Under the pieces are notes generated by a model. That model did no database searches, was not told the origin of the DNA, and saw only the letters and a program-made list of their open reading frames with translations. Positions 5,822-26,287 of a stretch of 26,287 nucleotides of DNA are shown here, piece by piece (position 1 is the first letter of the stretch; the number at the start of each line of letters is the position of its first letter). The stretch is from a virus. A program made the position numbers and the translations under genes. Location of the stretch: positions 1-26,287 of the IMG/VR virus record IMGVR_UViG_3300003322_001570; one strand, 5' to 3'.

Positions 5822-7366
5822 GTGACGGCTGTCGGATACACCAGCGGCGACCCGAACAAGGTCGACGTCGCTGGGGACACCATGACCGGCGATCTCGTCC
5901 TCAACGACGGGACGCCGGACACGTCGCGGTCCGCTGCTCCGAAGTCGTACGTCGACAACCTGGTGGGGGCCGCCAGCGGCGTGTACCTGCCCCAGGCCGG
6001 TGGGACCATCACCGGAAGCCTGACCGTCAACACGAACCTGTCCGTGCTCGGGCGGGCCACTGATGCCCTCGGCTACCCCCTGGATACCATCGCTCCCTTC
6101 ACCAGGCGCCCGGCGTACCTGGACGGGACGATCGTCACGGCCTTCCAGGCGGGTCACGGCTGGACCGTGGGCTCCGGATCTGGATCGGGCAGCAGCAACG
6201 CCAACGACACGTCCGTGTTCGCCAAGGGGACCCAGTCCGCCACCGTGACCACGGCGGGCAACGGTGCCCAGTCGCAGATCCGGCGCACGGGCATGTCGGC
6301 CGTCGACCTCACGAACAAGACGATTCGCCTGGTCCTCAAGGTCGACACCACGGCGAACCTGGACCACATCAGCTTCTACGTGGGCACGTCCGGCTTCGCG
6401 AACTTCTTCCAGTGGAACGTGCACACCCACTCGACCACCACGACCCAGAACTGGGTGCAGGACGGTGAGTGGGTGACGATCACCTTCGGCTGGCCCTCGG
6501 TCACATCGGCGTCCGGCTCGTACACGCTGTCGAGCACGAAGGTCCCGTCGGTCACCTCAGGCTTCACCGACATGCAGTTCGCCGTGTACGACACCGGCGC
6601 CGGGACGGTGACGTACCACCTCCAGTCCATCGAGATCATCGACGGGACCAGCGCGACGTTCCCCAATGGCGTCTGCTCGATCACCTTCGACGACTCCTGG
6701 CAGAGCGTCTTCGATTACGGCAAGCCGAAGATGGACGCGCTGGGCTATCGGGGGACGAACTACACGATCGCGGGCTCCATCGGGACCTCGAACCACCTGA
6801 CCCTGGCGGAGCTTCAGCAGCTCCAGGATGTGAACGGCTGGGAGATCGGCGGTCACTCGTACGACCCGGCCGTGCACACCAACCGGCTGACCTCGTACAC
6901 CGCCGCCCAGGTGGACGACGACCTGCGCAAGATGCGGTCCTGGCTGGTCCGCAACGGCCTGAACGGAGACGGCTTTGCCTACCCGGGCGGGAACTTCTCC
7001 AAGACCACGGACAACGTCCCCATCGAGTCCATCGTGGCCCGGTACTTCGGTCACGCCCGGAGCATCACCCAGCAGCCCGAACACTCCAGTCCGCCCATGC
7101 CGTACCGCCTGCGGGCCCAGACCGGCATCAACGACGGAACGGGCCTGGGCGGCATCACGGTGGCCTCTATGACGTCCACAGGTGGCCTGCTCGACCAGTG
7201 CGCCAATGGTGGCTGGCTGATCCTGTGCCTCCACGTGATCACCACGACCACGCCCACCGATTCCACCCAGATCTCGCAGACGGGCTTCAACACCCTGATG
7301 GATGCCATCGCCTCGCGCGGTATCCAGGTGCTGCCCGTGGGTGACGTCCTGCGGTACTACTCGTAA
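5822..7366 (+). CDS. Fibre-like surface protein with C-terminal polysaccharide deacetylase domain
   Basis: 514 aa with three parts. Residues 1-80 carry two fibre-type repeats (AGDTMTGDLVLN and AGGTITGSLTVN). Residues about 100-280 look like a Ser/Thr-rich beta-sandwich, possibly carbohydrate-binding. Residues about 283-514 resemble a CE4/NodB polysaccharide deacetylase, a family that removes N- or O-acetyl groups from cell-wall or surface polysaccharides: TFDDS (288-292), FAYPGG (385-390) and LCLH (468-471). The second metal motif is unusual: EIGGHSYDPAVH (341-352) has its second His displaced from H-S/T-x-x-H, so activity is uncertain. GTG start after AAGGAGGAG. Position between capsid and adaptor suggests a head-surface fibre rather than a tail protein, although tail location is possible. 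Confidence 0.8.
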   Translation: MTAVGYTSGDPNKVDVAGDTMTGDLVLNDGTPDTSRSAAPKSYVDNLVGAASGVYLPQAGGTITGSLTVNTNLSVLGRATDALGYPLDTIAPFTRRPAYLDGTIVTAFQAGHGWTVGSGSGSGSSNANDTSVFAKGTQSATVTTAGNGAQSQIRRTGMSAVDLTNKTIRLVLKVDTTANLDHISFYVGTSGFANFFQWNVHTHSTTTTQNWVQDGEWVTITFGWPSVTSASGSYTLSSTKVPSVTSGFTDMQFAVYDTGAGTVTYHLQSIEIIDGTSATFPNGVCSITFDDSWQSVFDYGKPKMDALGYRGTNYTIAGSIGTSNHLTLAELQQLQDVNGWEIGGHSYDPAVHTNRLTSYTAAQVDDDLRKMRSWLVRNGLNGDGFAYPGGNFSKTTDNVPIESIVARYFGHARSITQQPEHSSPPMPYRLRAQTGINDGTGLGGITVASMTSTGGLLDQCANGGWLILCLHVITTTTPTDSTQISQTGFNTLMDAIASRGIQVLPVGDVLRYYS

Positions 7367-21458: not shown

Positions 21459-22729
21459 CGGATCTCCTTGATCTCTCCGGTCGTCAGGTCGACGACGATA
21501 CGGGCCTTCTGGAAGGCGATGGCCCTCTTGGCGGCGTCACGGGCTCCGTAACGGGCCCTGTCGGCCTTGTACTGGGCCTTGTCGGCGATCTGGTCCCATC
21601 CGGCCCGGTCCTGCTCCACACGCTCCTGACGGGCCTCCTGGGCCCCCTGGACGCCCATCTCCACGGCCAGCTCGTCCAGGGTCTTGGAGGTCCGGTCCCA
21701 CAGGCCCTTGTCGGAGGACAGCAGTCCGGAGTCCGCCAGGTGCTTCAGGTGCCGGTGCACGGTGGCCTTGCTCATCCCCGTGGCCTCGATGACCTGCCGG
21801 GCCGTACGGGGCCCGTCCAGGAACACGGAGTACACCGTGGCCCGGTGCCGTCCCAGGACCAGGAGGGCGTCCGAGGTCGCCTCCTCCAGTGAGACCGGGG
21901 AGAGTCTCACTTTGGCACCACAGTTCGCACGCCCGGTGGACCTCCCCGTACTGCGTACGGGGACCGTGGTGCCATTCTGAGACTCCCCCTGAGACCGGGT
22001 GGCACCGCAGGAGTGGCACTGCTGAGACCCCGGGGAGAGCAGCCGGTAGGTCTGGGCGTCACGGACGTGGTTCCGGGAGGAGTGCCGGGAGATCCAGCCG
22101 GTCTCCACCAGACGCTTCAGGGACCTCAGGACCGTGCGGACGGGGACTCCGGAGCCCAGGGAGATGGACCGGACCGAGACCGAGAGCACGATCCGCCCCC
22201 TGCGCTGTGCCTCCTTGTGCACGAAGGTGAGCACATACCGGTCCGACTGGAGCATCTTCACGTGACCGAAGTGCTCGACGATCAGGGCCAGCTCCTGACG
22301 GGCTCCGGCCTTGTCCGAGATCGCGGGGGACTTGGCGACCTTGGCGACCGCACGGTCCCAGTCGGCCTGAGCGGCCTTGACGGGGTTCGTACGGGACCGG
22401 TGACCGGACCTGGCACCACGGCGGTGGTAGACCTCGGCGAGCCGGTACTGGTCCGGCTGGGACATGTGGTGCCAGAACTCCGACCAGTCCCAGCCCCGGT
22501 TGACCGCGTGGAGTGTGAAGGACCGGACCGCCTCCGAGCGGGAGGTGTGCCAGGACGAGCCCATGCCGTCCACCAGCAGGTCCCAGTACCGGGAGTCCAG
22601 GGGCCGCCTGATCGACTTGACATCGTCAACCCCATGGGGGACGGTAGAGACGTCTACCAACGATTCCTGGGGAGACCCGACCGGGTTGCTACCCGATCGC
22701 TTCAGGGTAGAGTTGGAGGACAACTTCAT
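21455..22729 (-). CDS. Double winged-helix DNA-binding protein, candidate replication initiator or regulator
   Basis: 424 aa. Residues about 40-105 (RYWDLLVDGMGSSWHTSRSEAVRSFTLHAV, then WSEFWHHMSQPDQYRLAEVYHRRGAR) form an N-terminal domain of unknown type. Residues about 180-217 form a first winged helix (VRSISLGSGVPVRTVLRSLKRLVETGWISR). A linker at about 231-290 has Cys238, Cys241 and Cys270. Residues about 297-340 form a second winged helix (ARQVIEATGMSKATVHRHLKHLADSGLLSS). The C-terminus is a charged helix. ATG follows AGGAG by 6 bases. DNA coding the linker carries a repeat cluster (21889-22029), and a related inverted repeat lies in the promoter region. That fits a self-regulating replication initiator like lambda O in layout; a transcriptional regulator is the alternative. 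Confidence 0.8.
   Translation of the reverse strand: MKLSSNSTLKRSGSNPVGSPQESLVDVSTVPHGVDDVKSIRRPLDSRYWDLLVDGMGSSWHTSRSEAVRSFTLHAVNRGWDWSEFWHHMSQPDQYRLAEVYHRRGARSGHRSRTNPVKAAQADWDRAVAKVAKSPAISDKAGARQELALIVEHFGHVKMLQSDRYVLTFVHKEAQRRGRIVLSVSVRSISLGSGVPVRTVLRSLKRLVETGWISRHSSRNHVRDAQTYRLLSPGSQQCHSCGATRSQGESQNGTTVPVRSTGRSTGRANCGAKVRLSPVSLEEATSDALLVLGRHRATVYSVFLDGPRTARQVIEATGMSKATVHRHLKHLADSGLLSSDKGLWDRTSKTLDELAVEMGVQGAQEARQERVEQDRAGWDQIADKAQYKADRARYGARDAAKRAIAFQKARIVVDLTTGEIKEIR
21889..22029. repeat. Iteron-like repeat cluster inside the winged-helix gene, candidate origin
   Basis: Within 141 bases lie five TGAGACC/T words (21890-21896, 21903-21909 inverted, 21978-21984, 21990-21996, 22023-22029) and four TGGCAC words (21913, 21964-21974 inverted, 22000, 22014). 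Two are organised as the same composite AGTCTCA-N3-TGGCACCACRG in opposite orientation (21903-21923 plus, 21964-21984 minus). Between them is a perfect hairpin with 9-bp arms TCCCCGTAC/GTACGGGGA (21943-21951, 21955-21963). A third composite at 21990-22010 keeps the 3-base spacing. The region encodes only the linker between winged helices, leaving freedom for DNA sites. Confidence 0.7.
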
Positions 22730-22756
22730 GTGGTGCTCCTATGCGTCAGGAGTGCC

Positions 22757-22787
22757 GGTCTCACAGGTTCTGGCGGACCTTGAGACC
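22757..22787 (-). promoter_or_regulatory. Inverted GGTCTCA repeat upstream of the winged-helix gene
   Basis: GGTCTCA (22757-22763) and TGAGACC (22781-22787) form an inverted repeat with a 17-base spacer, 28-58 bases upstream of the ATG at 22729. The same 7-mer is repeated in the cluster at 21889-22029. It lies just downstream of the AT-rich promoter-like motif, where binding would block transcription, so it is a good autoregulatory operator candidate. Confidence 0.6.
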
Positions 22788-22790
22788 AGC

Positions 22791-22804
22791 GGATTTTAAA
22801 ATCC
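22791..22804 (-). promoter_or_regulatory. AT-rich palindrome GGATTTTAAAATCC upstream of the winged-helix gene
   Basis: A perfect 14-bp palindrome in a GC-rich setting. Read towards the gene on the minus strand it continues CGCTGG, giving TTTTAAAATCCG, the same form as the motifs at 4698 and 23659. The start codon is 62 bases downstream. It may be a -10 region or an activator site for the two leftward genes. Confidence 0.5.
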
Positions 22805-22809
22805 GAACC

Positions 22810-22840
22810 GAGCCCCCGGTGCTGAGATCACCGGGGGTTC
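22810..22840 (-). terminator. Terminator behind the 53-aa ribbon-helix-helix gene
   Basis: GAGCCCCCGGTG (22810-22821) pairs with CACCGGGGGTTC (22829-22840), 12 bp with one G-T pair and a 7-nt loop. In leftward reading it follows the 53-aa gene's stop by 23 bases and is followed by CGGTTCGGATTTT, giving a T-containing end. It separates this gene from the winged-helix operon. Confidence 0.7.
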
Positions 22841-22863
22841 CGTGCGTTCAGGGTACGACGCGA

Positions 22864-23025
22864 TCAGGCCGAGCCGCTCTGGCGGGACAGACCCAGGCTG
22901 ATCATCCGACGGGCCGCCTCGGCCACCGAGATGCCCTGCCGGTCCGCCAGCTTCACGAGCCGCTCCTTCATCGCGGACTCCATCGGCACGGTGAGCTGAG
23001 AGTCGATCTTCTTCTGGATGGCCAT
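22864..23025 (-). CDS. 53-aa ribbon-helix-helix DNA-binding protein
   Basis: A gene too short for usual ORF cut-offs. The product begins MAIQKKIDSQLTVPMESAMK and continues ERLVKLADRQGISVAEAARRMISLGLS, the typical ribbon-helix-helix (Arc/CopG-type) plan: a short strand (IDSQLTVP), helix 1 (ESAMKERLVKLADRQG), the S-V-A-E-A-A-R-R turn and helix 2. Such dimers bind operators through the strand pair. GGGAG lies 5 bases before the ATG. It is divergent from the membrane gene at 23102 across a perfect 9-bp inverted repeat, so it probably represses its own promoter and the rightward one. Confidence 0.85.
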   Translation of the reverse strand: MAIQKKIDSQLTVPMESAMKERLVKLADRQGISVAEAARRMISLGLSRQSGSA

Positions 23026-23038
23026 CTGGTCTCCCTGG

Positions 23039-23079
23039 TTGCGGACGAGTTGGTGACGACATAGTATCTAGTCACCAAC
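23039..23079. promoter_or_regulatory. Divergent promoter and operator with GTTGGTGAC inverted repeat
   Basis: GTTGGTGAC (23049-23057) and GTCACCAAC (23071-23079) are perfect 9-bp arms around a 13-base AT-rich spacer. A rightward promoter candidate is TTGCGG (23039-23044), 18 bases, TAGTAT (23063-23068). The leftward -10 could be TACTAT on the other strand of the same spacer. The arms bracket both -10 regions, as expected for a repressor site. Confidence 0.65.
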
Positions 23080-24389: not shown

Positions 24390-25379
24390 GTGAAGGTCGG
24401 CATCACCGGAGGGGCGGGCTTCATCGCCTCCCACATCATCGAAGAGCTGGTGGCCCGGGGCCACAGCGTGATCGTCTTCGACCATCTCGGCCGTGTGGAC
24501 CGCGAGGTGCTCGCCAAGGCGGACCCCGAGGGCCGGGATTACATCACCCGGATGATGGGCTCCGTCACGGACGAGCGGGCCGTGTACGAGCTGGCCGCCC
24601 ACGTCGAGGGAATCATCCACCTCGCGGCCGTCCTGGGCACGCAGGAGACCATCAAGGCCCCCAAGCCCTCGGCCGAGACCAACATCCTCGGCTCCCTGAA
24701 CGTCTTCGAGGCCGCCAACCGGTACGACCTCCCCGTGGTCTACGCGGGCGTGGGCAACCACTGGATGCGCAACGAGGGCACCGGCAGCTACACGATCTCC
24801 AAGACGGCCGCCGAGGACTTCGCGCGGATGTTCAACGCCTACCGCGAGGGCCGCATCTCGATCGTGCGCCCGGTCAACGCCTACGGTCCCCGCCAGTCCG
24901 TCGCCGCCCCGTACGGCACCAGCAAGGTCCGCAAGATCCTCCCGGCCTTCACCTGCCGGGCCCTGACCGGAACCGACATCGAGGTGTACGGAGACGGCAC
25001 CCAGATCTCGGACTGCGTGTACGTCACCGACGTCGCCAAGACCTTCGTCACCGCGCTGGAGCACACGAGCGCCCACGGGCCCGTCTCCCGCCCCGTGGAG
25101 GTCGGCCCGGTCTCTTCCCTCACCGTCAACGAGATCGCCCGCCTGGTGGCCATCTACGCCGCCAGTGAGACCGGTCAGCCCCAGGTGCACCTCAAGCACC
25201 TGCCCATGCGGCCCGGGGAGGTCCCGAACGCGGTGGTCTCGGCGGACACCGACACCCTCAAGCAGCTCGGCATGGACGCCAGGGACTTCGTGCCCCTGGA
25301 GGACGGCATCGCCCGGACCGTCGGCTGGTACGCCGAGAACTGGCTGCCGAACTACCGCCCGACGGAGGGCAAGGTCTGA
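24390..25379 (+). CDS. NAD(P)-dependent sugar epimerase/dehydratase (extended SDR family)
   Basis: 329 aa, GTG start 5 bases after AGGAGG. The N-terminal Rossmann fold shows TGGAGFIAS (6-14) and HLAA (77-80). The catalytic Y-x-x-x-K is YTISK (134-138), and RPVNAYGPRQ (160-169) and DCVYVTDVAK (208-217) are typical of nucleotide-sugar epimerases and dehydratases. The usual Ser/Thr before the catalytic Tyr (SSxxxYG) is replaced by YAGVGNHW (118-125), so mechanism or substrate may differ. It acts on an NDP-sugar, probably supplying the adjacent glycosyltransferase, whose ATG overlaps its stop by one base. Exact sugar cannot be inferred. It is divergent from a ribbon-helix-helix gene and likely controlled through 24341-24357. 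Confidence 0.9.
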   Translation: MKVGITGGAGFIASHIIEELVARGHSVIVFDHLGRVDREVLAKADPEGRDYITRMMGSVTDERAVYELAAHVEGIIHLAAVLGTQETIKAPKPSAETNILGSLNVFEAANRYDLPVVYAGVGNHWMRNEGTGSYTISKTAAEDFARMFNAYREGRISIVRPVNAYGPRQSVAAPYGTSKVRKILPAFTCRALTGTDIEVYGDGTQISDCVYVTDVAKTFVTALEHTSAHGPVSRPVEVGPVSSLTVNEIARLVAIYAASETGQPQVHLKHLPMRPGEVPNAVVSADTDTLKQLGMDARDFVPLEDGIARTVGWYAENWLPNYRPTEGKV

Positions 25380-26287
25380 TGCGCATCCACATGTGGGCGG
25401 CCGACACCGGCGGCAGCGCCCTGTACCGCATGGACCTGGTGGCCACCGGCCTGACGTGGCAGGGCCACCAGGTCTCGGTGAACAACCAGCTCCCGCCGGA
25501 CTGGGAGGAGTGCGACGTCGTGGTGGGAGCCCGTGTCTCCAACCCGGACGCCGCCCGCATGTGGAAGGTCATGGCCGACAAGGGCATCCGGCTCGTGCTG
25601 GACATGGACGACGACTACTTCCATGTGGACCCGACCAACGCCAAGGCGTACGAGCTGTGGACCCGGCCCGACCACCAGAGGCGCCTGATCGAGTCCATGG
25701 AGGTCTCCAGCGCGGTCACCGTGTGCTCGCAGGCCCTGGCCGAGGTGATGGCCGAGTACCGCGACGACGTCCAGGTGGTCGAGAACGCCCTGCCCGCCCA
25801 GTTCCTGGGGATGGCCCGGGACTACTCGCCCGAGCAGCTCATCGTGGGCTGGGCCGGGTCGGAGTCGACGATCCACGAGCTGCCCCTGGCGATCCGGCAC
25901 CTGAACCGGATCGCCCAGAAGGACGGGGTGCGCACGGTGCTGGTCGGCATCCATGCCCGTGACGCCGTCAGGACCGGGGCGAGGGGCAAGTCCGTCCTGG
26001 CCACCGGCTGGATCGACGGGCACAAGGAGTACATGGACCAGGCGTGGTCCTTCGACCTCCAGGCGGCCCCGTACCGGGACACCCCGTTCAACCGGGCGAA
26101 GTTCCCCACCAAGGCGCTGGAGGCCGGGTTCTTCGGCGTCCCCCTGGTGGCCTCGAAGATCCGCCCGTACGCCGAGTGGATCGAGCACGGCGTCAACGGC
26201 TTCCTGGTGCCCACCGGCCAGGAGCACCTCTTCGGCCGGTACCTCCAGCAGCTTGTCAACGACCCGCAGATGCGCCAGGAGATGGGC
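25379..26287 (+). CDS. GT4-like glycosyltransferase, 3' end cut by the window
   Basis: 303 codons are present without a stop, so the gene continues outside the window. The N-terminal half has MRIHMWAADTGGSALYRMDLVATGL, then CDVVVGARV and LVLDMDDDYFHVDP. The C-terminal half has LIVGWAGSESTIHELP, VLATGWIDG and FPTKALEAGFFGVPLVASKIRPYAEWIEHGVNGFLVP (242-277), the donor-sugar-binding pattern of GT-B family 4 enzymes with conserved acidic residues. It begins one base inside the epimerase stop (TGATG), so the two should act in one pathway, transferring an activated sugar to a phage structural protein, DNA or host surface. Target unknown; phage head or tail glycosylation is the leading guess. Confidence 0.88.
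   Translation, partial: MRIHMWAADTGGSALYRMDLVATGLTWQGHQVSVNNQLPPDWEECDVVVGARVSNPDAARMWKVMADKGIRLVLDMDDDYFHVDPTNAKAYELWTRPDHQRRLIESMEVSSAVTVCSQALAEVMAEYRDDVQVVENALPAQFLGMARDYSPEQLIVGWAGSESTIHELPLAIRHLNRIAQKDGVRTVLVGIHARDAVRTGARGKSVLATGWIDGHKEYMDQAWSFDLQAAPYRDTPFNRAKFPTKALEAGFFGVPLVASKIRPYAEWIEHGVNGFLVPTGQEHLFGRYLQQLVNDPQMRQEMG

Follow-up and report, generated by a model that had tools for sequence, protein, structure and literature searches.

A hairpin-centered repeat array inside a putative replication initiator gene of a virus contig as a candidate replication origin

The window analyzed here is the whole stretch of 26,287 nucleotides that makes up positions 1 to 26,287 of the IMG/VR record IMGVR_UViG_3300003322_001570. 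It is a virus contig in which portal and capsid genes were recognized by Pfam, and its terminase is related to terminases from phages of Streptomyces and Microbacterium; the host group of the phage appears to be actinobacterial. The structural region includes, at 5822–7366, a gene whose product shows a Pfam match to the polysaccharide deacetylase domain (E 1.8e-8) and may be a virion enzyme that acts on the host surface. Positions 24390–26287 hold an NAD-dependent epimerase/dehydratase gene, with approximately 75% DNA identity to "UDP-glucose dehydrogenase" genes of large Streptomyces phages, followed by an ORF that by its look resembles a glycosyltransferase, together a possible sugar-modification module. 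No helicase or primase gene that would anchor a replication module was recognized in the window.

The gene considered here (Table 1) encodes a protein composed of an N-terminal helical domain, winged helix 1, a linker, winged helix 2, and a C-terminal helical tail, with Pfam and PHROG winged-helix matches at residues about 160–250 and 290–345. Its best PHROG matches are the replication initiation families 8102, 270, 391 (O-like), 1032, and 678. The Pfam models RP-C and RepL exceed their own cut-offs over winged helix 2, which is also similar to MarR/IclR regulators in Pfam. The best NCBIfam match is RepABC RepC (NF040974) with 27.7 bits, far under the cut-off of 150, so the whole protein does not belong to the RepC model. 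Nor is the gene preceded by repA and repB in a shared operon, the upstream gene (22796–23062) having no par-like match in Pfam or PHROG. The protein does not qualify as an HUH rolling-circle initiator either, as no rolling-circle Rep family is among its best Pfam matches and its sequence contains only an H-x-x-H. A single-sequence AlphaFold model is poor (mean pLDDT 46) and low over residues 149–293, including winged helix 1 and the linker.

Within this gene, a stretch of 141 bases (21889–22029) contains five copies of TGAGACY and four of TGGCAC. Two composite units sharing the form AGTCTCA-N3-TGGCACCACRG, 21 bp each, face each other around a perfect hairpin. The original prediction had described these copy numbers and the two facing units around a hairpin with 9-bp arms, and both were confirmed by the count. 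It had also placed the repeats in the DNA coding for the linker between two winged helices, which holds, as they code for residues 234–281, and its term "initiator-like" for the gene agrees with the PHROG, Pfam, and distant-homolog evidence. Its estimate of about three occurrences of a given 7-mer per window proved loose: shuffles give approximately 9.8 TGAGACY against eight observed, nearer five per 7-mer, while the clustering itself stood, with seven of the eight copies lying within 21890–22787. The sequence TGGCACCAC has four copies in the window, all within the initiator gene. Those at 22411–22419 and 22466–22474 form a facing pair farther upstream in the gene and are the only other copies in the window.

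Table 1. Positions of the initiator gene and of the features inside and upstream of it, with offsets from the hairpin center in the window and in the near relative
Feature	Positions	Strand	Offset (window/relative)	Sequence or remark
Putative replication initiator gene, 424 aa	22729–21455	−		ORF; Pfam and PHROG matches; relative with 43% identity; distant family
TGAGACY copies in element	21890, 21903, 21978, 21990, 22023	+, −, +, +, +		
TGGCAC copies in element	21913, 21969, 22000, 22014	+, −, +, +		
A1 box	21890–21896	+	−60/−59	TGAGACC
Left composite unit A2-N3-B1, 21 bp	21903–21923	+	A2 −47/−47; B1 −36/−35.5	AGTCTCA-CTT-TGGCACCACAG
Left unit of relative			equal to A2-N3-B1 of window	TGTGCAC-GAGA-GTCGACAC-TG
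Spacer	21924–21942	+		part CACGCCCGGTGGACC; same letters in relative
Perfect hairpin, 9-bp arms, 3-nt loop	21943–21963			TCCCCGTAC-TGC-GTACGGGGA
Right composite unit B2-N3-A3	21964–21984	−	B2 +17/+16.5; A3 +28/+27	faces left unit; reverse complement AGTCTCA-GAA-TGGCACCACGG
A4 box, then B-like sequence	21990–22010	+	A4 +40/+42	TGAGACC, then TGGCACCGCAG
Outlying TGGCAC and A5 box	22014–22029	+	+73/+51 (outermost copy)	A5 TGAGACC; position not conserved
Inverted pair	22757–22787			GGTCTCA-N17-TGAGACC; approximately 30–60 bases upstream of start codon

The inverted pair of A boxes that precedes the gene, overlooked in the original prediction, is likely an operator for autoregulation. Upstream of the initiator promoter, an A+T-rich sequence at 22793–22808, CGGATTTTAAAATCCG, is a perfect palindrome of 16 bp, and a G+C-rich stem, CCCCCGGTG...CACCGGGGG, comes after it; this site is a possible unwinding element, promoter, or terminator. 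No A+T-rich unwinding element is found in or adjoining the repeats, the GC content being 62%–75% across the element, and the lowest value near the initiator gene is 55%, in the promoter region (22710–22799). The GC skew has no inflection and is uninformative in a contig that is a 26-kb genome fragment.

A six-frame search of 395 genomes from the family of Streptomyces prunicolor (Streptomycetaceae) identified one near relative of the protein, with 42%–43% identity over residues 41–422 (E 6.8e-84), on a contig of 3,578 bases. The genome of this relative has no match to the terminase of the window. Further Streptomycetales genomes gave no second near relative, tblastn of the protein against phages and plasmids gave no full-length homolog, and pattern-based searches that started from the protein, from the relative, and from an alignment of the two gave none in viral and bacterial contigs. 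The initiator was found in none of 50 terminase-related viral records. At the DNA level, the composite-site pattern matched 65 stretches of viral contigs, all but one with a single match, and these were taken as chance; the conserved 17-mer spacer had seven matches in viral contigs, none with a hairpin adjoining. On the contig of the relative, several GGTGAGCAC-type repeats were noticed by eye at 600–1500 around an antitoxin-like gene and a metalloprotease-like gene with a HEAAH motif; a different regulator probably uses these repeats as operators.

In the corresponding part of its linker, the relative carries different words, namely four copies of GTGCAC and one of GTCGACAC per orientation. 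All four GTGCAC copies of its contig lie in the linker, some beyond the conserved stem, as would be the case were all of them sites of a single protein. The equivalent of A4 is a degenerate copy, GGTGCAT. Every repeat word is altered in this one near relative, yet the spacing is kept within 0–2 nt (Table 1; B centers were measured from B words of nine bases in the window and eight in the relative). The loss of repeat spacing in relatives that keep the protein, which the original prediction had named as evidence against it, was thus not seen in the one near relative examined. The hairpin has the same size in both sequences, with four of nine pairs changed on both sides, and is kept though the coded peptide differs (VPVRST in the window, VPSLRD in the relative). 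The outer stem keeps its register (the offsets add up to −19 in either sequence); 17 of its 24 positions pair in both sequences and nine are changed on both sides, so that over the total stem 26 of 33 positions pair in both and 13 are compensatory. This geometry and the 13 compensatory pairs, at 43% protein identity, indicate selection at the DNA level on the repeated sites and the dyad within the gene. The spacer part CACGCCCGGTGGACC is identical and, with the next bases, codes for GRSTGR with six of six codons identical (chance approximately 1e-3); this run alone stands out, modestly, in codon conservation that is otherwise near background (56% identical codons at identical residues vs. 49% expected from codon usage). 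Judged from the two sequences, the linker arrangement is real, since a distant relative has different letters and the same layout within one or two bases. Because the words changed jointly inside and outside the stems around a fixed geometry, the pattern is best explained by a sequence-specific DNA-binding protein that coevolves with its sites, a conservation that rests on this single comparison.

The clustering of words is by itself only moderately significant, ranking fourth among the 6-mer clusters of the window with a score of 5.41, against Markov-simulated maxima with a mean of 4.06 and a highest value of 5.47. The strong feature is the inverted repeat that flanks the hairpin, the single one of its class (24-nt arms, 19 or more complementary bases, gap no longer than 60) in the 26,287 bases, and an inverted repeat of that class is also unique in the contig of the relative. 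The joint pairing of outer stem and hairpin was reached by none of 20,000 codon-preserving shuffles of either gene. Folding with DNA parameters gave the same extended stem-loop for both strands of both elements (z −3.6 to −4.4), and the hairpin may accordingly act as a structure, whether in DNA or in RNA.

A class-level profile search with both proteins recovered distant members of 397–453 amino acids together with others of about 710 amino acids that have an N-terminal primase-like domain, which Pfam matches weakly to primases (E 0.0017). Some plasmid proteins, initially weak matches, are related through winged helix 2 and the C-terminal tail (E approximately 1e-9 in pairwise comparison). The family gene of Nocardia pIFM12275 adjoins genes annotated as partitioning proteins (parAB), and that of Mycolicibacterium farcinogenes unnamed2 lies near a ParA gene. 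No comparable element was found in the linker of the distant members. The fusion of a primase-like domain to the double-winged-helix architecture occurs in actinobacterial plasmids and genomes, and this family seems to be poorly covered by Pfam and NCBIfam. The PHROG matches and the primase-fused and par-linked homologs are indirect evidence that the protein belongs to a replication-initiator family. Given these fusions and parAB neighbors, the protein most probably initiates replication, with the element as its probable origin. The boxes, their geometry, their covariation, and the family relationship are what the sequences show.

Taken together, the element is probably the replication origin of the phage, with the protein of the same gene as its predicted initiator. 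Because the sites lie inside a gene of an initiator family, that protein is the prime suspect for reading them. The double-winged-helix protein would bind the A and B boxes as iteron-like sites in its own gene. The distance from A to B is approximately one helical turn, and the unit is as long as the classical iterons that double-winged-helix initiators have, which suggests that one protomer grips each unit of approximately 21 bp, with one winged helix per box. The two units facing around the hairpin and the outer A boxes would build a symmetric assembly that bends or opens the DNA, possibly extruding the hairpin, and that loads the helicase and primase of the phage, for which no genes were recognized on the contig. 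The A copies at the promoter would let the initiator regulate its own synthesis. Binding by the initiator protein, strand opening, and initiation at the element are inferred. A more speculative proposal, which we consider doubtful, is a phage/plasmid initiator family in which the embedded origin is the main determinant of the inter-domain linker. Iteron words would then change wholesale with the DNA-binding specificity of the initiator within a fixed hairpin-centered geometry, and in high-GC hosts the extruded hairpin, not an A+T-rich tract, would be where strands open or where primase recognizes the DNA.

Several other functions could produce such an array. The boxes may be operators of a winged-helix regulator, either the initiator or a prophage repressor, with the promoter copies blocking transcription initiation and the internal ones acting as a roadblock or silencer, so that the element would control transcription and not be an origin. 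The inverted pair of A boxes upstream of the gene and the likeness of winged helix 2 to MarR/IclR regulators are in line with this; however, the relative has no GTGCAC upstream of its gene and still keeps the internal layout and the hairpin, and the family is tied to primase-like domains and plasmid par loci, which makes operators alone an unlikely reading. What is conserved could also be structured RNA: the initiator mRNA would form a long stem that contains an inner hairpin, and this fold would govern translation or the stability of the transcript. Compensatory changes are a prediction of RNA structure, and the same extended stem-loop is found in both sequences on both strands, but the repeats beyond the stem changed word too, pairing does not explain A1 and A4 of the window, and the element has no Rfam match and no terminator-like site, so we regard an RNA element as decidedly improbable.

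That the array is a partition, incompatibility, transfer, or recombination site placed by coincidence in the initiator gene is still less probable, indeed very unlikely. Such sites can be inverted-repeat arrays, and the Streptomyces clt locus of pWTY27 extends into traA (PMC3583192); against this, no par, transfer, or integrase gene was recognized beside the initiator gene among the ORFs examined, and the location inside an initiator gene, in a phage and likewise in a second element, fits initiator binding better. That the repeats arose by chance or were forced by the repetitive peptide STGRSTGR is hardly credible. The peptide does lift the background pairing, codon shuffles forming a mean of 12 of the 24 outer pairs, and the word clustering is by itself of moderate significance, but the joint pairing never appeared in those shuffles and the geometry recurs in the relative with other letters, which refutes this reading at the level of the two-sequence comparison.

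To our knowledge, origins are unmapped in most actinobacterial phages and many actinobacterial plasmids. The element interpreted here as an origin offers a compact and testable candidate contained in a single gene, without an A+T-rich tract and centered on a hairpin in a high-GC replicon. The window and its relative constitute a two-member natural experiment in initiator–origin coevolution, with the same geometry and different words at approximately 43% protein identity. A self-contained gene of initiator plus origin would serve as a vector module.

The original prediction considered an origin in a winged-helix initiator gene to be new, which is wrong: origins inside initiator genes as such are already known from the classic lambda O and from repC of repABC plasmids, which encodes a MarR-like initiator. 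In the Streptomyces linear plasmid pSLA2 (rep1/rep2), the iterons within rep1 are the Rep1 binding site, in a phage-like organization. RepC carries a MarR-like DNA-binding domain, and the purified protein binds 150 nt of mid-repC sequence that contains an imperfect dyad; the window shares with this system a putative MarR-like initiator of two domains and a linker, a probable origin in the gene, and a dyad within approximately 150 nt at mid-gene (PMC3155836, PMC6090056). RepC origins differ in having a large A+T-rich region and no iterons, whereas the window element has distinct repeated boxes and a perfect hairpin but lacks an A+T-rich tract, and the two proteins have no near sequence relationship (27.7 bits vs. 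the cut-off of 150). In lambda, the iterons lie in the middle of the O gene, where they code for the inter-domain stretch as in the window, and their number can vary among relatives (PMC7466680). They adjoin an A+T-rich tract, however, the architecture of O differs, and the descriptions of ori-lambda consulted include no central perfect hairpin.

Among actinobacterial replicons, the Streptomyces theta plasmid pWTY27 also has an initiator acting on an inverted repeat with direct repeats: its RepA binds the inverted repeat IR2, which overlaps short direct repeats and whose loop is less protected, and its RepB is a primase/polymerase (PMC3583192). Its array differs from that of the window in lying in non-coding sequence and not within rep. 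The plasmid Rep-like proteins of Nocardia pIFM12275, M. farcinogenes unnamed2, and Arthrobacter p2MP share winged helix 2 and the C-terminal tail, and two of the three adjoin or lie near par genes; they differ in that two are longer, with an N-terminus that is primase-like by eye, and in having no comparable inverted repeat in the gene. In mycobacteriophages, a RepA gene has been proposed to include its origin or to lie next to it (PMC7157519). Set beside these systems, what is new, as far as could be tested, is this protein family, the hairpin-centered arrangement, and the change of words while the geometry stays.
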